Assembly: GCA_019348495.1 (NCBI GenBank)
Contig: JAHWJI010000016.1
Span: 1-35,316, forward strand
Direction of reading: 5' to 3'
Length of the DNA stretch: 35,316 bases
DNA from: Actinomycetota bacterium
Lineage (GTDB): Bacteria; Actinomycetota; Acidimicrobiia; Acidimicrobiales; CADCSY01
Part shown: positions 9,367-16,126 of the stretch, one piece after another
Layout: the number at the start of each line of letters is the position of its first letter
Numbering within the stretch: the stretch's first letter is position 1
The notes under the pieces: generated by a model
Seen by the model: only the letters and a program-made list of their open reading frames with translations
The model's database searches: none
Told to the model about the DNA's origin: nothing
Translations under genes and position numbers: made by a program

Positions 9367-9540
9367 GTGGGATTCAGGGACAAGGTCTCCAACAAGGCCC
9401 AGGATTTCAAGGGCAAGGGCAAGCAAGCCGGAGGCAGGGCCACCAACGACCGGGGCCTCGAGGCCGAGGGCAGGGCCGACCAGAAGAAGGCCGGGCTGAA
9501 AGACGTCGGCGAGAAGCTCAAGGACGTGTTCAAGAAGTAG
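9367..9540 (+). CDS. CsbD-like stress protein
   Basis: A 57-residue, highly charged, Lys/Gly/Ala-rich protein. It begins VGFRDKVSNKAQDFKGKGKQ and ends KLKDVFKK, the pattern of the CsbD family of small hydrophilic proteins that are often induced by general stress and whose biochemical role is unknown. The start GTG 9367 is preceded by GAGGAGGGAGCCATC, a strong ribosome binding site. The stop at 9540 overlaps the end of the converging TusA-MetE fusion gene by 11 bases. It is the third gene after the cupin, 90 bases downstream. Confidence 0.85.
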   Translation: MGFRDKVSNKAQDFKGKGKQAGGRATNDRGLEAEGRADQKKAGLKDVGEKLKDVFKK

Positions 9541-11146
9541 TCGCTGCAGGCGCAGGGGGGCTCAGCCGCCGGTCAGTGTGTCGCGGGCGGGTCAACTTGT
9601 CGCGGGCGGCGGCCAGCGCCCCCAGGTGAGCCTCGGCCAACTGGGCGTCGGCGATGGGGTTGTCGGCGAAGGTGGCGAAGCCGCAGTCGGGGTTGAGCAG
9701 CAGCCGCTCGGCGCCGAACAGGTCGACGGCGTGGCGGGCCCGTGCCGTCACCGACTCCACCGGGTCGACGACCGGCGACTTCTGGTTCACCAGTCCCACG
9801 CCGATGCGACGGTCGTCGGGAAGGGTCGCCAGCACGTCGATCTCACCGGCGCGGGGAGTGCACAGCTCGAGTACGAAGGTGCCGAAGTCCAGAGCCGACA
9901 GCAGCGGGACCAGCGGGCGGTAGTCGCCGGCCAGCGCCATCGCCTCGTCGGGCGTCCAGTTGCCCCGGCAGATGTGCAGCGCCATCCGCTCGCCCGGCAG
10001 GCCCGAGGTCAGCTCCTGCAGCAGGCCCCGGGCGAAGTCGAGCTCCTCGCCCACCCTGCCCCGCTCTCCGAGAGCGCCGCACATGAAGGTACGGCCCCCC
10101 TGTCCGGGCGTGCCGTACACCACCTCGGTGAGCACGGGCTCGTCGAACTGCACCAGGGCCACGCCGGCTGCCAACAGGTGGTGCAGCTCCTCACGTAGCA
10201 CCCGCACGATGTCCCGGGACAGGTCCTCGCGGTCGTCGTAAGCCCGGTCCGAGAGGCACTCCATCCACATGGTGCGGGTCAGCAGGTACGGCCCGGGCAG
10301 GCTGACCTTGACCGGCTTGTCGGTCAGGCGCTGCACGAACTGTGCCTCGTGCACGGTCAAGGGCCGGCCCCGCCCGAGGGGACCGAAGACCGCCGGATGG
10401 CGCACCTGGCCGGCGGGCACGTCCAGGGCGGCAAGCTCGGCTTCGAACTGGACCGGGTCGTCGACGTAGGGCAACAGGTCGGTGACGGGAATCAGCTGGC
10501 AGTTCTCGAGCAGGCCACCAACGAAGCTGGAGTAGTTGTCCCGGCGCTGCTCACCGTCGGTCACCACGTCGGCACCGGCCCGCAGCTGGGCGTCGACCGC
10601 CAGGCGAACGGCGTCGTCGGCGCTCTCGGTGAACTCGGCCTCGCTCATGCGCGATTCCAGGCGTTCGTGCAGCGCCCGGAGCAGCCAGCGGGGCCGGGGC
10701 CAGCTCCCCACACCCATTACCGACAACGGCTCAATCGCCGGTGCCGGCACCGGCGCCGGCAGTGTCGCTGGGATGGTCGGCGTGACCACCGGCTGGGTGA
10801 TGGGGGCCTGACGCCGGCCGCCTCGCCCGAGGATGACCTCGGGCCGGTCGGCCCCGACCGGCTGGAGGTCGTCGTCGGGGGGCGGCGTGAACGGGCCCTT
10901 GCTCACCAAGAAGCTGCGCTGGCGGCCCGTGCGCCACATGTTGACCATCTCGTTGCCGGTGAGGCGGCACCAGGCGGGGAGGTCCTCCTCCACCGACGCC
11001 TCCATGGAGAGGATCTCCAGGAGCTGGCCCTGCTCCAGCGGGTCGATGTGCTTGCGGATCAACAACAAGAGCCCGTTCCCGCAGTCGAGCTCCCCTCCGT
11101 CGAAGCCGACGGCGGCCTGGTACGGGTGCGTCCTGGTGCGACTCAC
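9530..11146 (-). CDS. TusA-like domain fused to MetE-type methionine synthase core
   Basis: A 538-residue fusion. Residues about 8-80 are a TusA-like sulfur-carrier domain: FDGGELDCGNG places Cys22 at the position of the TusA nucleophile, but it is followed by Gly rather than the usual Pro. A proline-rich linker (about 84-138) leads to a UROD/MetE-like barrel (about 140-520) that matches only the C-terminal half of cobalamin-independent methionine synthase. Zinc and homocysteine residues appear conserved: FDEP (Asp335), HIC (His391, Cys393), LELCTPRAGE (Glu427) and NPDCGFATF (Cys488). The N-terminal folate-binding half of MetE is absent, so the methyl donor is unknown. GTG 11146 is seven bases after the DsrE-like gene stop; this is the third gene of a TusA-DsrE-fusion operon. 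Confidence 0.85.
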   Translation of the reverse strand: MSRTRTHPYQAAVGFDGGELDCGNGLLLLIRKHIDPLEQGQLLEILSMEASVEEDLPAWCRLTGNEMVNMWRTGRQRSFLVSKGPFTPPPDDDLQPVGADRPEVILGRGGRRQAPITQPVVTPTIPATLPAPVPAPAIEPLSVMGVGSWPRPRWLLRALHERLESRMSEAEFTESADDAVRLAVDAQLRAGADVVTDGEQRRDNYSSFVGGLLENCQLIPVTDLLPYVDDPVQFEAELAALDVPAGQVRHPAVFGPLGRGRPLTVHEAQFVQRLTDKPVKVSLPGPYLLTRTMWMECLSDRAYDDREDLSRDIVRVLREELHHLLAAGVALVQFDEPVLTEVVYGTPGQGGRTFMCGALGERGRVGEELDFARGLLQELTSGLPGERMALHICRGNWTPDEAMALAGDYRPLVPLLSALDFGTFVLELCTPRAGEIDVLATLPDDRRIGVGLVNQKSPVVDPVESVTARARHAVDLFGAERLLLNPDCGFATFADNPIADAQLAEAHLGALAAARDKLTRPRHTDRRLSPPAPAATTS

Positions 11147-11153
11147 CGGGCGA

Positions 11154-11516
11154 CTAGTAGGTGACGCAGGGAGCGCCGCTGGCCAGGAACTCCACCAGCT
11201 TCGCCCCGCCCACGATGGTCGCTCCCTTCACCAGGGCGCCCTCGTCCAGGGCGCGCCTCTTGAAGCACGGCGAGCACACCCAGACGGTCCCACCCGCCTC
11301 GACGAAGTTGGTCATCAGGTCCTTCAGCGGGGAGAACCCTTCCTCGTGGATGTCGTCGGCATAGCCCTCGACGGCCAGACGCACGCCTTCGGTGGACAGG
11401 AACACGAGGGTCTCCTGGTCCGACCCTGCGGCCGCGTTGGCGATGACGAAGCCCACGGTGGCCCGGTCGGGGTCGTTCTTGGCGTTGGTCAGCGATACAC
11501 AGAACTTTCCAGCCAT
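11154..11516 (-). CDS. DsrE-like sulfur relay protein
   Basis: A 120-residue protein of the DsrE/TusD-like fold, small proteins that pass persulfide sulfur between carriers. Features are FCVSLTNAKNDPDRATVGFVIANAA at the N-terminus, LVFLSTEGVRLAVEGYADDI, and VWVCSPCFKRRAL with Cys81 and Cys84, the likely reactive cysteines, then the C-terminal GATIVGGAKLVEFLASGAPCVTY. ATG 11516 has GGAG at good spacing; ATG 11522, two codons upstream, overlaps the TusA stop as ATGA, so either start implies coupling. Sandwiched between two TusA-like domains, it probably exchanges sulfur with one or both. Confidence 0.85.
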   Translation of the reverse strand: MAGKFCVSLTNAKNDPDRATVGFVIANAAAGSDQETLVFLSTEGVRLAVEGYADDIHEEGFSPLKDLMTNFVEAGGTVWVCSPCFKRRALDEGALVKGATIVGGAKLVEFLASGAPCVTY

Positions 11517-11518
11517 TG

Positions 11519-11761
11519 TCATTGCTCCTGTCGTCGTTGGATCAGGTACACGGGGTGGCGCTCGGCGACCAGTCGGTGCCCGGTCAGGCGGCACCACGCG
11601 GGCAGGTCTTCGGGTGCGCCGGGGTCGTGGGCCACCAGCTCGAACAGCGCGGCCGGCCCCAGGGCGGCGAGGCGGCCACGAAGCTGGATGACCAGCTCCC
11701 CACAGCCCATCTCACCGGCGTCCCAGCGCTCGACCACCGAGTGCTCGCCGTGTTCGGACAT
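11519..11761 (-). CDS. TusA-like sulfur carrier protein
   Basis: An 80-residue TusA-like protein, first gene of the sulfur operon. WDAGEMGCGELVIQL aligns with the TusA active-site segment D-x-G-x-x-C-P, with Cys20 followed by Gly instead of Pro. The second half contains EDLPAWCRLTGH, shared almost word for word with the TusA-like domain of the downstream fusion protein (EDLPAWCRLTGN), so the two domains are paralogues. A second conserved Cys lies in that segment. Upstream AAGAGAGGAA is rather far (about 14 bases) from ATG 11761. The stop overlaps the next gene. Confidence 0.85.
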   Translation of the reverse strand: MSEHGEHSVVERWDAGEMGCGELVIQLRGRLAALGPAALFELVAHDPGAPEDLPAWCRLTGHRLVAERHPVYLIQRRQEQ

Positions 11762-12060
11762 CAGCGTTTCAGCGTTCCTCTCTTGCTGGACCTGGCTCGA
11801 CGGCCAAGCCGCGGTACGTGGGACCGGTGCGGCGCCGGCCCCCTCTCTAGGAGGGCGTACGGCGCGGTCCGAAGAAGGGGCGCTCGCCCGACCGGGCGAG
11901 AGCGGCGTCAGCTCAGCGACATGTCATCGGGGACGCCCTCCCTTCGCTCGGATCTCGGTGGCGCCCGCACAATAGCCCGGTCCAGTGGTCTGCACCTCGC
12001 GCCCTTCGGGCGGGCCCTCCCTCGCTGGTTGCGCCCGGGGCCCGCCGGGTGGTGTACAAG
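11762..12060. other. intergenic region between divergent sulfur operon and rsgA
   Basis: About 300 bases separating the minus-strand TusA gene from plus-strand rsgA. It should contain promoters for both. I see a small palindrome CCCTCTCTAGGAGGG (11840-11854) and a GCCCTTCGGGC hairpin (about 12001-12011), but no convincing promoter or riboswitch. Confidence 0.4.
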
Positions 12061-13098
12061 ATGGCGGTGACGTCGCCCGAGTTGGAGGCCTACGGCTGGA
12101 CGACGCGCTGGGCCACCCTGTTCGCCGAGATCACCGCCTCCTCGCCCGACGCCCGGCCCGGTCGCATCGTGCGCCACGACGGGTCGGCCGTGCTGGCGGT
12201 GTCCGTCGATGGGGCGCTCGAGCACCTCCAGGTGCCTCCCCGCGTTGATCCGGCGCCGGTGGTGGGCGACTGGGTGGCGATCGACCCCGCGACGCACAGC
12301 GTCATCGCCGCGCTGGCCCGGCACTCCCTGCTTCGCCGCCAGGACCCGGGCACCGGGAGCCAACAACCGCTCGTCGCCAACGTCGACGTGGTCCTCGTGG
12401 TCTGCGGCCTCGACCGTCCGGTCAAGCCCGGGAGGATCGAGCGCTCGGTCACCCTGGCGTGGGACGCGGGAGCGACGCCCGTCGTGGTGCTTACCAAGGC
12501 CGACCTGGTCGCCGATCCCGAGCAACGGGCCGAGGCGGTGCGCCGGGGAGGTCCCGGCCTCGATGTGGTCCTCACCAGCGCCGCCACCGGTGCCGGCATG
12601 GACGAGCTACGGCGGATGTGCCGCGACAGGACGGTCGTCCTGCTCGGTGAGTCGGGGGCCGGCAAGTCGACCATGACCAACACCCTCGCCGGCTGCGCCG
12701 TGGCCACCACCGGTGTCGTGCGGGGCGGCGACGCCAAGGGACGCCACACCACCACCGCCCGCCACCTGTACCCGCTGCCGAGCGGCGGCGTGCTGGTCGA
12801 CACGCCGGGGCTACGAGCCGTCGGGCTCTCGGTCGACCTCGACGCCGTCGCCGCCACCTTCGGCGACGTCGCGGCCATCGCCAAAGGCTGTCGCTTCGGT
12901 GACTGTCGTCACGACCGCGAGCCCGGCTGTGCCGTGCTCGCGGCCGTCGCCACCGGGGAGCTGGCCACCGAGCGGTGGGCGAGCTGGACCACGCTGCGGC
13001 GGGAAGCCAAGGTGGCCGAGCAGCGGGCGGACGGACAACAGCGGGAGCACGAGCGACGCGTCGCCCGACCCAAGCGCGGGCGAGAACGCGACCACTAG
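12061..13098 (+). CDS. rsgA: ribosome biogenesis GTPase RsgA
   Basis: A 345-residue circularly permuted GTPase that checks maturation of the 30S subunit. The permuted order is visible: an N-terminal OB-like domain, then G4 TKADL, G5-like SAATGAG, G1 GESGAGKST, switch region GRHTTTARHL and G3 DTPGLR. A C-terminal zinc knuckle follows as GCRFGDCRHDREPGC. The C-terminal tail is strongly basic, consistent with RNA contact. I chose ATG 12061; GTG 12049 is also in frame. It stands alone, divergent from the sulfur operon and followed by a microprotein gene. Confidence 0.93.
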   Translation: MAVTSPELEAYGWTTRWATLFAEITASSPDARPGRIVRHDGSAVLAVSVDGALEHLQVPPRVDPAPVVGDWVAIDPATHSVIAALARHSLLRRQDPGTGSQQPLVANVDVVLVVCGLDRPVKPGRIERSVTLAWDAGATPVVVLTKADLVADPEQRAEAVRRGGPGLDVVLTSAATGAGMDELRRMCRDRTVVLLGESGAGKSTMTNTLAGCAVATTGVVRGGDAKGRHTTTARHLYPLPSGGVLVDTPGLRAVGLSVDLDAVAATFGDVAAIAKGCRFGDCRHDREPGCAVLAAVATGELATERWASWTTLRREAKVAEQRADGQQREHERRVARPKRGRERDH

Positions 13099-13312: not shown

Positions 13313-13984
13313 GTGGATGTGCTCATCGCCTGTTGGTCGGCCAAGGGGGGAAGCGGCACCACCGTGGTGTCGGTCGCCCTCGCCACCGTGCTCGCCCGTT
13401 CGTCACCTGGCGGGGCCCTGCTCGCCGATCTGGGCGGCGACGTTCCCGCCGTGCTGGGACTGCCCGAACCCGCCGGCCCCGGTCTGGAAGAGTGGCTGGC
13501 CTCGGGTGCGTCAGTTCCTGCCGACGCCCTTTCCCGCCTCGAGATCGCCGGCCCCGGCGGCCTGCACGTGCTGCCCGTCGGGGCGCCGTCTTCAACCCCG
13601 CCGCCCCCCGGGACCACGGGCCGAGCAGAAGTGCTCGCCGCCGTCCTGGCCGCCGACCCCCGACCGGTGGTCGCCGACTGCGGCTGCCTCCCTGCCGGTG
13701 CCGGCCTGGCCGTGGCCGCGGCGGCCTCGGTGTCGTTGCTGGTGCTGCGGCCGTGCTACCTCTCGCTGCGCCGGGCCCTCCAGGCGCCCCTCCGCCCGTC
13801 GGGCGTGATATTGGTCAGTGCGTCGGGCCGCTCCCTCGGCCGCAGCGATGTCGAGCACGTGCTCGGTGTCCCCGTGCGTGCCGTGGTGGCGGTGGATCCG
13901 GCGGTGGCCCGGGCCGTCGACGCCGGCCTGCTACCTACCCGCCTGCCCCGTGGACTCGAGCGGGCGCTACGCCATGCTGCTTGA
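13313..13984 (+). CDS. tadZ: TadZ/CpaE-like P-loop ATPase
   Basis: A 223-residue ParA/MinD-superfamily ATPase opening a Tad pilus locus; such proteins localise the pilus machine to a cell site. The deviant Walker A motif is near the N-terminus, CWSAKGGSGTTVVSVALA (residues 7-24), and VVADCGCLPAGAG (about 118-130) occupies the Walker B position with Asp121. There is no N-terminal receiver domain of the kind seen in longer CpaE proteins. GTG 13313 is used as start; GTG 13319 is possible. The stop overlaps the start of tadA by 11 bases. Confidence 0.82.
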   Translation: MDVLIACWSAKGGSGTTVVSVALATVLARSSPGGALLADLGGDVPAVLGLPEPAGPGLEEWLASGASVPADALSRLEIAGPGGLHVLPVGAPSSTPPPPGTTGRAEVLAAVLAADPRPVVADCGCLPAGAGLAVAAAASVSLLVLRPCYLSLRRALQAPLRPSGVILVSASGRSLGRSDVEHVLGVPVRAVVAVDPAVARAVDAGLLPTRLPRGLERALRHAA

Positions 13985-15227
13985 GGCCACCACCGTGGCC
14001 ACGGTGGTCGAAGACCTGGAGGAGCGCCTGCACCGATCGGTGGTGGCGGCCGACAGCCATCTCGGCGAGCACCGCCTACCTCCCGACGGTGCCGGCGTGC
14101 GCATCCTGGTCGAGCGTCTGGCCCGGGCCGAGGCGCCGCTGCTGAGCGGCCCGGCGCTCGACGCCATCGTCGACGCGGTCACTGCCCGGGTGCGGGGACT
14201 GGGTCCGCTCGAGGCGCTGCTCGGCGACCCCTCGATCAGCGAGGTCATGGTCAACGGGCCCGGCAGGGTCTGGATAGAGCGCCACGGCCGCCTCGAGCGC
14301 CTCGAGACCGAGCTGGACACACCCACCATCGAGCGCCTCATCGAGCGGGTGGTCGGCCCCCTTGGCCTGCGCATCGACCGCTCCTCGCCCCTGGTCGACG
14401 CCCGCCTGCCCGACGGGTCGCGCGTCAACGCCGTGGTCCCTCCCCTCGCCATCGACGGGCCGTGCCTGACCATCCGCCGCTTCGGCGCCCGTCGCCTCAC
14501 CCTGGCCGAGGTCAGTCCTCCCGGCGTCGGCGAGCTCTTGGCCTGGGCCGTTCGCTCCCGGGCCAACGTGTTGGTCTCGGGCGGCACCGGTGCGGGCAAG
14601 ACCACCCTGCTCAACGCGTTGGGGGCCGAGATCCCCGCCGGCGAGCGTGTCATCACGGTGGAGGACGCAGCCGAGCTGCGGCTGCCCGGTGCGCACGTCG
14701 TGCGCCTCGAGTCCCGGCCGGCCAACGCCGAAGGCGTGGGCGAGGTCCCGCTGCGCCAGCTGGTCCGCAACGCCCTGCGGATGCGTCCCGACCGGATCGT
14801 CGTGGGGGAGGTTCGAGGCCCCGAGGCCCTCGACATGCTCCAGGCCATGAACACCGGCCACGAGGGCTCGCTGTCGACCTGCCACGCCAACAGCCCCACC
14901 GACGCCCTGCGCCGCCTGGAGACCATGGTCCTCACCGGGTCGGTGGCCCTGCCTCTGGCGGCGGTGCGCGACCAGCTCGGCGCCGCCCTCGACCTGGTGG
15001 TCCAGGTGGCTCGCCGGCCCGACGGTCGCCGGGGGGTGGTCGAGGTGGCCGAGGTGATCACCGATGACGAGGCGGTGACCACCGGTGGAGCCCCCGGACT
15101 GCGGACGCGCCGCCTGGCCGGTCCCGCCGGGGTGGTGGGGCTGCCCGCCCGAGCGCCGAGGGCCGTCGACGCCGATGCTCCCGACCCCTCCTGGGTGCTC
15201 GGTGGGACCGCGGTCGGGGCGTCGTGA
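13974..15227 (+). CDS. tadA: Tad pilus assembly ATPase TadA/CpaF
   Basis: A 417-residue hexameric secretion ATPase that powers assembly of Flp-type pili. The N-terminal region carries LGPLEALLGDPSISEVMVNGP (about 76-96), typical of CpaF. Walker A is SGGTGAGKTT (202-211), the Asp box follows as VITVEDAAEL, and Walker B/His box as MRPDRIVVGEVRGPEALDM with NTGHEGSLSTCHANS. The C-terminal tail is Ala/Pro-rich and probably flexible. ATG 13974 lies inside the end of tadZ; the frame extends further upstream without support. The stop overlaps the tadB GTG. Confidence 0.95.
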   Translation: MLLEATTVATVVEDLEERLHRSVVAADSHLGEHRLPPDGAGVRILVERLARAEAPLLSGPALDAIVDAVTARVRGLGPLEALLGDPSISEVMVNGPGRVWIERHGRLERLETELDTPTIERLIERVVGPLGLRIDRSSPLVDARLPDGSRVNAVVPPLAIDGPCLTIRRFGARRLTLAEVSPPGVGELLAWAVRSRANVLVSGGTGAGKTTLLNALGAEIPAGERVITVEDAAELRLPGAHVVRLESRPANAEGVGEVPLRQLVRNALRMRPDRIVVGEVRGPEALDMLQAMNTGHEGSLSTCHANSPTDALRRLETMVLTGSVALPLAAVRDQLGAALDLVVQVARRPDGRRGVVEVAEVITDDEAVTTGGAPGLRTRRLAGPAGVVGLPARAPRAVDADAPDPSWVLGGTAVGAS

Positions 15228-16126
15228 ACATCGCTCTCGGCACCCTCGTCGCCAGCCTGGTGATGGTGGTGGTCCTAGCGCTGCGTGGCGCCGTGGCCCG
15301 AGGGCGAGGGTCGCGGGTGGCCCGCCGGCTGGAAGGGGCACCCACGTCTTCGGGGCGGGCCGCGCTGGTCGCTGTGGTGCCCCAGCCGCCGGCTCGTCTG
15401 GTCCGGGGGCTGGCCGACGCCGGGCTGGTGCTCGATGCCCGACGGGCCTGGGGTGCCTGGTTGGTCACCGTCGCCCTGGCGCTCTGCGTTGCCCTGGTGG
15501 CCGGTGGTCCCGGCCTGGGTGTGGTCGCCGTGCTCATCACCACCGTCGGACCTGCGGTGGGCCTGCGCGCCGCCTCGGGACGGGCCGATCGGTTGCTGGA
15601 GGACGGCCTGCCCGACGCCCTCGAGGCCATGGCCCGGGCCCTGCGCAGCGGTGCCTCCCTTCGCCAGGCCGTGGCCGAGGCGGCTGCGGCCACGCCAGGG
15701 GCCCTGGGCGCCGACCTCAGCGGGGTGGCCCATGAGGTGAGCCACGGCCGGGCCCTCGCCGATGCCCTGGACGGGTGGGCCGCGCAGCGGCCGCTCCCAG
15801 GGGTGCGCCTGGCCACCTCGGCGCTGGGCCTCGGCGCCGAGACCGGCGGCGCCCAGGCCCGAGCCCTCGACGGCGTGGCCGCCACCCTGCGCAGCCGCCA
15901 GGCGGTGGGGCGCGAGGTACGGGCCCTGTCCTCCCAGGCTCGGCTGTCGGGCGTGGTCATAACCTTGGCGCCACTCGGCTTCTCGGCGCTGGCGGCCGCC
16001 ACCGACGAGCGCACCGCCTCGTTCCTCCTGGCCACCCCCCTCGGCCTGGTCTGCCTCTCCGTCGGCCTGGCCCTCGACGCAGTGGCGGCGCTGTGGATGC
16101 ACCGGCTCTCGCGGGTCGAGGCATGA
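15224..16126 (+). CDS. tadB: Tad pilus platform protein TadB
   Basis: A 300-residue inner-membrane protein of the GspF/TadB family. One or two helices lie at the N-terminus and near residue 85-110, then the cytoplasmic T2SSF domain: DGLPDALEAMARALRSGASLRQAV, and GVRLATSALGLGAETGGAQARALDGVAATLRSR. Two further hydrophobic helices close the protein. GTG 15224 overlaps the tadA stop and the gene's own stop overlaps tadC, so the whole set is translated in a coupled manner. Confidence 0.92.
   Translation: MNIALGTLVASLVMVVVLALRGAVARGRGSRVARRLEGAPTSSGRAALVAVVPQPPARLVRGLADAGLVLDARRAWGAWLVTVALALCVALVAGGPGLGVVAVLITTVGPAVGLRAASGRADRLLEDGLPDALEAMARALRSGASLRQAVAEAAAATPGALGADLSGVAHEVSHGRALADALDGWAAQRPLPGVRLATSALGLGAETGGAQARALDGVAATLRSRQAVGREVRALSSQARLSGVVITLAPLGFSALAAATDERTASFLLATPLGLVCLSVGLALDAVAALWMHRLSRVEA

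Follow-up and report, generated by a model that had tools for sequence, protein, structure and literature searches.

How toxic, reactive selenide is delivered to SelD without leaking, and how it is discriminated from the far commoner sulfide, is a long-standing question. A gene group that may bear on it was found in a 35,316-nucleotide stretch of DNA from an Actinomycetota bacterium (class Acidimicrobiia, contig JAHWJI010000016.1; the whole stretch is called the window below). Here, two TusA-like carriers, a DsrE-like relay protein and the catalytic half of MetE stand together in one operon, and one of the carriers is fused to the MetE core. What is such an arrangement for? The operon looks like an undescribed selenium-handling system, and a selenium role of some kind is probable. 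It provides a concrete, genetically testable candidate, in which chalcogen carriers are combined with a zinc methyltransferase-like enzyme and which tracks SelD across phyla. The enzyme may even carry selenocysteine in its own active-site loop. If this is true, an enzyme family would be added to the MetE superfamily, together with a selenoprotein family. The features of the operon are as follows.

11519..11761, minus strand: TusA-like carrier, 80 amino acids (Pfam TusA, 33.6 bits against a cut-off of 28.6, E-value 3.7e-8)
11154..11516, minus strand: DsrE-like relay protein, 120 amino acids from ATG (Pfam DsrE, 55.2 bits against a cut-off of 22.7, E-value 9.4e-15)
9530..11146, minus strand: TusA-MetE-core fusion, 538 amino acids, GTG start (Meth_synt_2, E-value 2.1e-30)
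10862..11113, minus strand: N-terminal TusA domain of the fusion (TusN), residues 12-95, with Cys22 and Cys60
10064..10102, minus strand: family-specific Cys356 loop, residues 349-361 of the fusion
9683..9976, minus strand: zinc site of the fusion (His391, Cys393, Glu427, Cys488), aligned with the MetE zinc ligands (PMC7857596)

In the fusion, the TusA domain proper (about residues 12-84) is followed by a linker and a MetE catalytic TIM barrel at about residues 136-522. The Pfam match of TusN spans residues 27-81 (E-value 2.5e-5) and lies below the Pfam cut-off; the domain was aligned independently in more than 100 homologues. An initial annotation, made from the letters of the window alone, had already described two TusA-like carriers, a DsrE relay protein and a MetE core with one carrier fused to it, and this is borne out by the profile matches and by the conservation of the unit. 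It had placed the genes at the right coordinates and called them overlapping or adjacent. They are adjacent, with gaps of 2 nucleotides between TusA and DsrE and 7 nucleotides between DsrE and the fusion, and do not overlap. Its numbering of the four zinc ligands and of the carrier cysteine Cys22 is correct as well. The folate-binding N-terminal half of MetE is indeed absent, since only the catalytic half aligns.

Is the arrangement restricted to this assembly? In a homologue scan covering 84,980 species genomes, at least 498 relatives were obtained, of which the best 80 were fetched; the counts of gene order and fusion rest on these. Identity over the core is 54-89%, and at least eight phyla are represented (sources are Planctomycetota, Beta- and Alphaproteobacteria, Anaeromyxobacter, Chloroflexi, Rokubacteria, Obscuribacterales, Acidobacteria and Actinobacteria). 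The co-occurrence of the three genes, for which the initial annotation had suggested a search, is evident from the gene order TusA, DsrE, TusN-MetE, which is kept in 72 of the 80 fetched loci. TusN is in frame with the MetE core in 75 of the 78 loci having a TusN domain. Several of the loci that deviate in order or fusion lie at contig ends. Hence, the fusion also occurs outside this assembly, and an assembly artefact is ruled out by the relatives in many phyla. A viral or mobile origin was also rejected: viral contigs contain no relatives, and the only ones among 72,556 plasmids are three Paracoccus megaplasmids. In the class to which the window belongs (296 genomes), only one other genome was found to have a close relative.

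In a second, sister subfamily (about 44-48% identical and mostly from Planctomycetota), TusN and MetE are encoded separately, the genes being otherwise the same. Since this split subfamily keeps both genes, carrier and barrel belong together, whether fused or not. The one TusN protein of the split subfamily that was scanned (L131:6391-7086, minus strand) is fused to OsmC (PF02566, E-value 5.6e-10). The TusN domain is thus joined to two unrelated enzymes, MetE core and OsmC, in sister lineages. Operon TusA proteins of planctomycetes (L123:3469-4032, plus strand; L131:7478-8044, minus strand) have a cysteine-rich N-terminal extension resembling CRECG...CVKC that has no Pfam match. A degenerate relative (L075:5626-5874) has Ser in place of the carrier Cys22 and a TAG within the TusN domain, and a second DsrE copy with an uncharacterised downstream gene (212 amino acids) lies near the operon at L136:9999-11000.

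Which functions can be expected from the conserved residues? In an alignment of 120 family members, His391, Cys393, Glu427 and Cys488 are invariant (120/120), and the homocysteine-binding residues of MetE (motifs GSWPRP, DGEQRRD and QFDEP; Ser148, Glu199 and Asp335) are invariant or nearly so. Both the His/Cys/Glu/Cys zinc set and the Ser/Glu/Asp homocysteine residues of core methionine synthases (PMC7857596) are therefore present. A loss of zinc ligands on alignment, named by the initial annotation as a possible objection, is not observed. Judged by its sequence, the barrel is zinc-competent and has an intact homocysteine-type amino-acid pocket. From zinc site and pocket, the barrel would be expected to activate a thiol or selenol of the homocysteine type for alkyl transfer.

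The cysteines of the carriers are conserved as well, namely Cys22 (108/109) and Cys60 (103/109) of TusN, Cys20 (108/108) and Cys57 (107/108) of the free TusA, and Cys81 (105/105) and Cys84 (104/105) in the VCxPC motif of DsrE. Neither TusA contains the CPxP motif, CG standing for CP: C20-G21, part of a GCG motif, is found in 108/108 free proteins and G23 in 109/109 fused domains. The cysteine at the CPxP position is near-invariant in both (Cys20 and Cys22) and the free TusA exceeds its Pfam cut-off, which places them among the TusA carriers. Likewise, profile match and conserved relay cysteine Cys81 place the second protein in the DsrE/TusD family; its closest solved structure is the DsrE/F-like 3mc3.

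A loop shortly after QFDEP carries residue 356, which is Cys in 117 of the 120 members and an in-frame TGA in three. This loop is missing from 29 other MetE-core proteins of the window's class, against which the family forms a monophyletic group (support 1.0). An AlphaFold2 model of the fusion has a mean predicted local distance difference test (pLDDT) score of 82, and the Cys356 loop following the QFDEP strand has low pLDDT. The predicted poor order would fit a mobile arm.

Is residue 356 a selenocysteine in the TGA-bearing members? In all three (loci L123, L146 and L149) the TGA lies exactly at the Cys356 position with homologous sequence on both sides. L123 and L146 belong to one planctomycete order and L149 to a separate lineage, hence TGA occurs in at least two lineages. 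Hairpins resembling a selenocysteine insertion sequence (SECIS) are found downstream of each TGA, a strong one in L149 and weak ones in the other two. The TGA is probably read as selenocysteine. A text search of the 2026 prokaryotic selenoprotein review and of the deep-Sep study found no mention of a MetE-type selenoprotein; earlier mention elsewhere is possible.

The genomes themselves point in the same direction. SelD is present above cut-off in 48 of the 51 operon genomes, and two of the three exceptions are metagenome-assembled genomes (MAGs) that carry a SelB sequence. All 13 cultured isolates among the 51 have both SelD and SelB. Since several betaproteobacterial MAGs have SelD without SelB, it is SelD, not the decoding of selenocysteine, that the operon follows. 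With genomes treated as independent, SelD is enriched in operon genomes of Planctomycetota (33/37 against 131/209 controls, p=7.8e-4) and Micrococcaceae (6/6 against 35/143 controls, p=3.3e-4), and over the strata, Burkholderiales included, a one-sided stratified p of 2.7e-5 is obtained. The window genome has both SelD and SelB. Its SelD (L150, G000:C161:26739-27662) contains an in-frame TGA and is probably a selenoprotein.

Selenium genes are also found next to the operon. In L149 the TGA-bearing MetE gene is followed by selD (310 bits, cut-off 125), senA (479, cut-off 420) and senB (389, cut-off 300). Three Paracoccus records show TusN-MetE followed by selA (565, cut-off 268) and trxB, with a SufS desulfurase upstream. 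A putative selenate-transporter binding protein of family TIGR04553 (cut-off 250) lies near the operon in Poseidonocella (L106, 362 bits) and Anaeromyxobacter (L053, 365 bits). In one further genome (G383), SelD is located about 2.3 kb from the operon on the opposite strand, by a cystathionine-synthase-like gene; this case was not counted as evidence.

Other neighbours differ between lineages. About ten loci have a PhnD-PhnE-PhnC-type ABC transporter inserted between DsrE and TusN-MetE; in the closest relative of the window (L115) it comes immediately downstream. Upstream of the operon, planctomycetes frequently encode a porin-like protein and a transglutaminase-like lipoprotein. Two families that match no Pfam or NCBIfam model lie between DsrE and TusN-MetE in alphaproteobacteria and in one Oxalobacteraceae (L090:3942-5603, L116:5862-7946): one is a membrane protein bearing a CVSC motif, the other an exported protein about 550 amino acids long. 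Together, these transporter, porin-like, lipoprotein and exported neighbours suggest uptake of an outside compound. Proteins similar to the Rv1680-family binding protein (NF049985, below cut-off) adjoin MetE-family genes at L142:4342-5238 and L112:3074-4975, and the TusA domains of the window weakly match the Rv1681 radical-SAM model. These resemblances hint at a link with the mycobacterial gene pair.

Do known systems explain the operon? MesA-MesD and MetE have the barrel fold, the zinc ligands and the homocysteine-binding residues in common with the operon enzyme, and MesA-MesD likewise lack the folate half. The operon enzyme differs from them by its TusA (fused or as a separate gene), its DsrE and TusA partners and the Cys/Sec356 loop. 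The Type I MGC Mlp methyltransferases and SdmABC, a system for the demethylation of methyl selenides, are, like the operon enzyme, selenium-linked zinc methyltransferases of the MetE/UROD fold superfamily. However, they belong to the UROD branch, occur mostly in anaerobes and work with corrinoid proteins, whereas the operon enzyme is of the MetE branch and is accompanied by carriers, no corrinoid protein having been found among the neighbour proteins scanned. Many of the operon-bearing lineages are aerobic. For the Mlp methyltransferases, 87% co-occurrence with the Sec machinery and methyl transfer from methylcobalamin to selenide were reported (PMC10418091), and in Methanococcus maripaludis tusA-tusD and SdmABC are both induced by selenium starvation (PMC11097638).

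YedF, a TusA+DsrE fusion linked to SelD and selenium utilisation (PMC5322559), shares the pairing of a TusA-type with a DsrE-type domain. In the operon, by contrast, these are separate genes, TusA lacks CPxP, DsrE has CxPC instead of CGxC, and a MetE core is added. Membership in YedF was rejected, as the genes are separate and do not match the NCBIfam YedF model (TIGR03527). The TusA-TusBCD and DsrEFH relays, like the operon, use proteins of the TusA and DsrE/TusD families whose relay cysteines are conserved, but only the operon relay ends in a zinc methyltransferase-like enzyme, and neither a tRNA thiolase nor dissimilatory sulfur enzymes were seen in the operon. The selenoneine genes senA-senB-senC as described include no MetE-like gene; L149 combines a MetE homologue with selD, senA and senB, and most operon loci have no sen genes nearby. 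We rate the operon as a variant of the selenium-linked zinc methyltransferase systems. The literature searched describes no pathway of this layout, in agreement with the initial annotation, and earlier mention elsewhere is possible.

How could the parts work together? We favour a selenium-supply module, with a probability of roughly 0.4, in which a zinc (de)methylase would free selenide from methylated selenium and a relay would deliver it to SelD. In the barrel, homocysteine or a comparable thiol would be bound on zinc, and the methyl group would come, without folate, from methylated selenium; candidate donors are methylselenol, dimethyl selenide or an Se-methyl amino acid. The freed selenide would be caught on Cys/Sec356 and transferred as perselenide to Cys22 of the fused TusA, then to DsrE (Cys81/84) and finally to Cys20 of the free TusA. 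SelD would convert it to selenophosphate for selenocysteine, selenouridine or selenoneine. In some lineages the nearby ABC transporters and the porin-like protein would import the selenium source. Judging from the carrier cysteines, Cys/Sec356 and the co-occurrence with SelD, a chalcogenide may be the second product and may be handed from protein to protein. Demethylation with selenide relay to SelD would explain all parts of the operon and has precedents in Mlp and SdmABC. Support for the selenium link is good; the chemistry we infer, and demethylation and relay in exactly this form are proposed tentatively.

Several observations weigh against this reading. Selenium genes directly beside the operon occur only in a minority of lineages and are absent from most neighbourhoods. 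The main PhnDEC-type transporter reaches 73-84 bits on the selenate model, which requires 250, and thus lies outside the selenate family. In Burkholderiales SelD is not enriched (7/9 operon genomes against 172/241, p=0.50), and all p-values given here ignore relatedness within a taxon and are optimistic, the genomes being non-independent. Two of the three TGA members stem from one planctomycete order, all but L149 have weak SECIS-like folds, and one member stems from a MAG with 8% estimated contamination. Moreover, Sec or Cys at a given position shows that the residue is reactive but does not by itself indicate that the substrate contains selenium.

The supply reading could also take an alternative form, which is possible but less likely. 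A MetE-type zinc enzyme may act on carrier-bound selenium by means of a swinging Cys/Sec arm and the attached TusA. Selenium would then be taken from or passed to the fused TusA, and selenide would never be free on its way to SelD. If true, the operon would represent a distinct kind of selenium-trafficking machine.

Could the chalcogen be sulfur instead? TusA and DsrE are classic sulfur carriers. They may supply the MetE barrel with sulfur as persulfide, for instance in homocysteine or methanethiol metabolism, and the selenium correlation would then result from shared ecology and genome type. The SufS-type desulfurase adjoining the operon in Paracoccus and Poseidonocella and the lack of SelD enrichment in Burkholderiales are consistent with this. 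The initial annotation, too, had considered an ordinary sulfur or homocysteine supply. On this point the evidence leads elsewhere: the TGA at position 356, the selD-senAB, selA-trxB and TIGR04553 neighbours and the presence of SelD in 48/51 operon genomes, including 13/13 isolates, argue for selenium, and the window genome has a MetH-like methionine synthase. A sulfur role is therefore doubtful. The selenium context and the invariant Cys/Sec356 loop were features that the initial annotation had missed.

Selenium could also flow in the opposite direction, with carriers bringing excess selenide to the zinc site for methylation to volatile methylselenol. Thiols and selenols are methylated by MetE-type zinc enzymes, the carriers could deliver selenide, and a related Mlp enzyme methylates selenide from methylcobalamin (PMC10418091). 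We consider such a detoxification unlikely, since the co-occurrence with SelD fits supply better than disposal and importer-like transporters adjoin the operon in some lineages. In addition, no methyl-donor partner such as a corrinoid protein was found among the neighbour proteins scanned, a scan that covered part of the neighbour genes.

Slightly less likely still is a further folate-independent methionine synthase, in which the sole task of the carriers would be to maintain the enzyme in reduced form or to provide an unusual methyl donor. The zinc ligands and the residues for homocysteine binding are intact, and the closest solved fold to the fusion model is the core methionine synthase MesD (3rpd; Z 34, root-mean-square deviation 2.5 over 322 residues), most MetE entries giving Z 28-32. 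However, the fusion scores 43-141 bits across the NCBIfam methionine-synthase models, whose cut-offs are 258-930. The core-synthase models give 141 against 406 (PRK04326), 105 against 392 (PRK09121) and 83 against 258 (PRK00957), and the full-length MetE models 74 against 930 and 80 against 541 (TIGR01371/PRK05222). Identity with full-length MetE, an objection raised by the initial annotation itself, is thereby ruled out. The family also forms a distinct clade with its own Cys/Sec loop. MesX (DUF1852), the partner of MesD, was not seen among the neighbour proteins scanned, no whole-genome search having been made. The MetH-like protein of the window genome (1157 amino acids, L153 5695-9168) was recognised by its own sequence and a B12-binding match. 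Because of it, plain methionine synthesis is unlikely to be the purpose of the enzyme, and methionine supply as its main role in this genome was set aside as less likely.

The least probable alternative is a system acting on organometals or metalloids (methylated arsenic or mercury) with Cys/Sec356 and the carriers as metal ligands: it was likened to the selenocysteine-assisted organometallic (SAO) operon, whose Sec/Cys loops are suggested metal ligands (review PMC13188914), and PhnD-like binding proteins and an exported transglutaminase-like protein lie nearby, but the neighbours scanned showed no arsenic or mercury genes, carriers of the TusA/DsrE type speak for a chalcogen relay, and the SelA, SelD and SenAB neighbours point to selenium.

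In the operon no riboswitch or other known RNA was detected at the gathering threshold, the window match being one tRNA elsewhere. The following genes near the operon in the window are on the plus strand. A gene for a CsbD-like small stress protein (9367-9540) converges on the MetE gene and overlaps its end by 11 nucleotides. On the other side, an RsgA-type GTPase gene (12049-13098) is divergent from the operon and separated from it by a gap of 287 nucleotides. It is followed at 13313-16126 by consecutive CpaE/ParA-like, T2SSE and T2SSF genes, which form a Tad-type pilus or secretion cluster.

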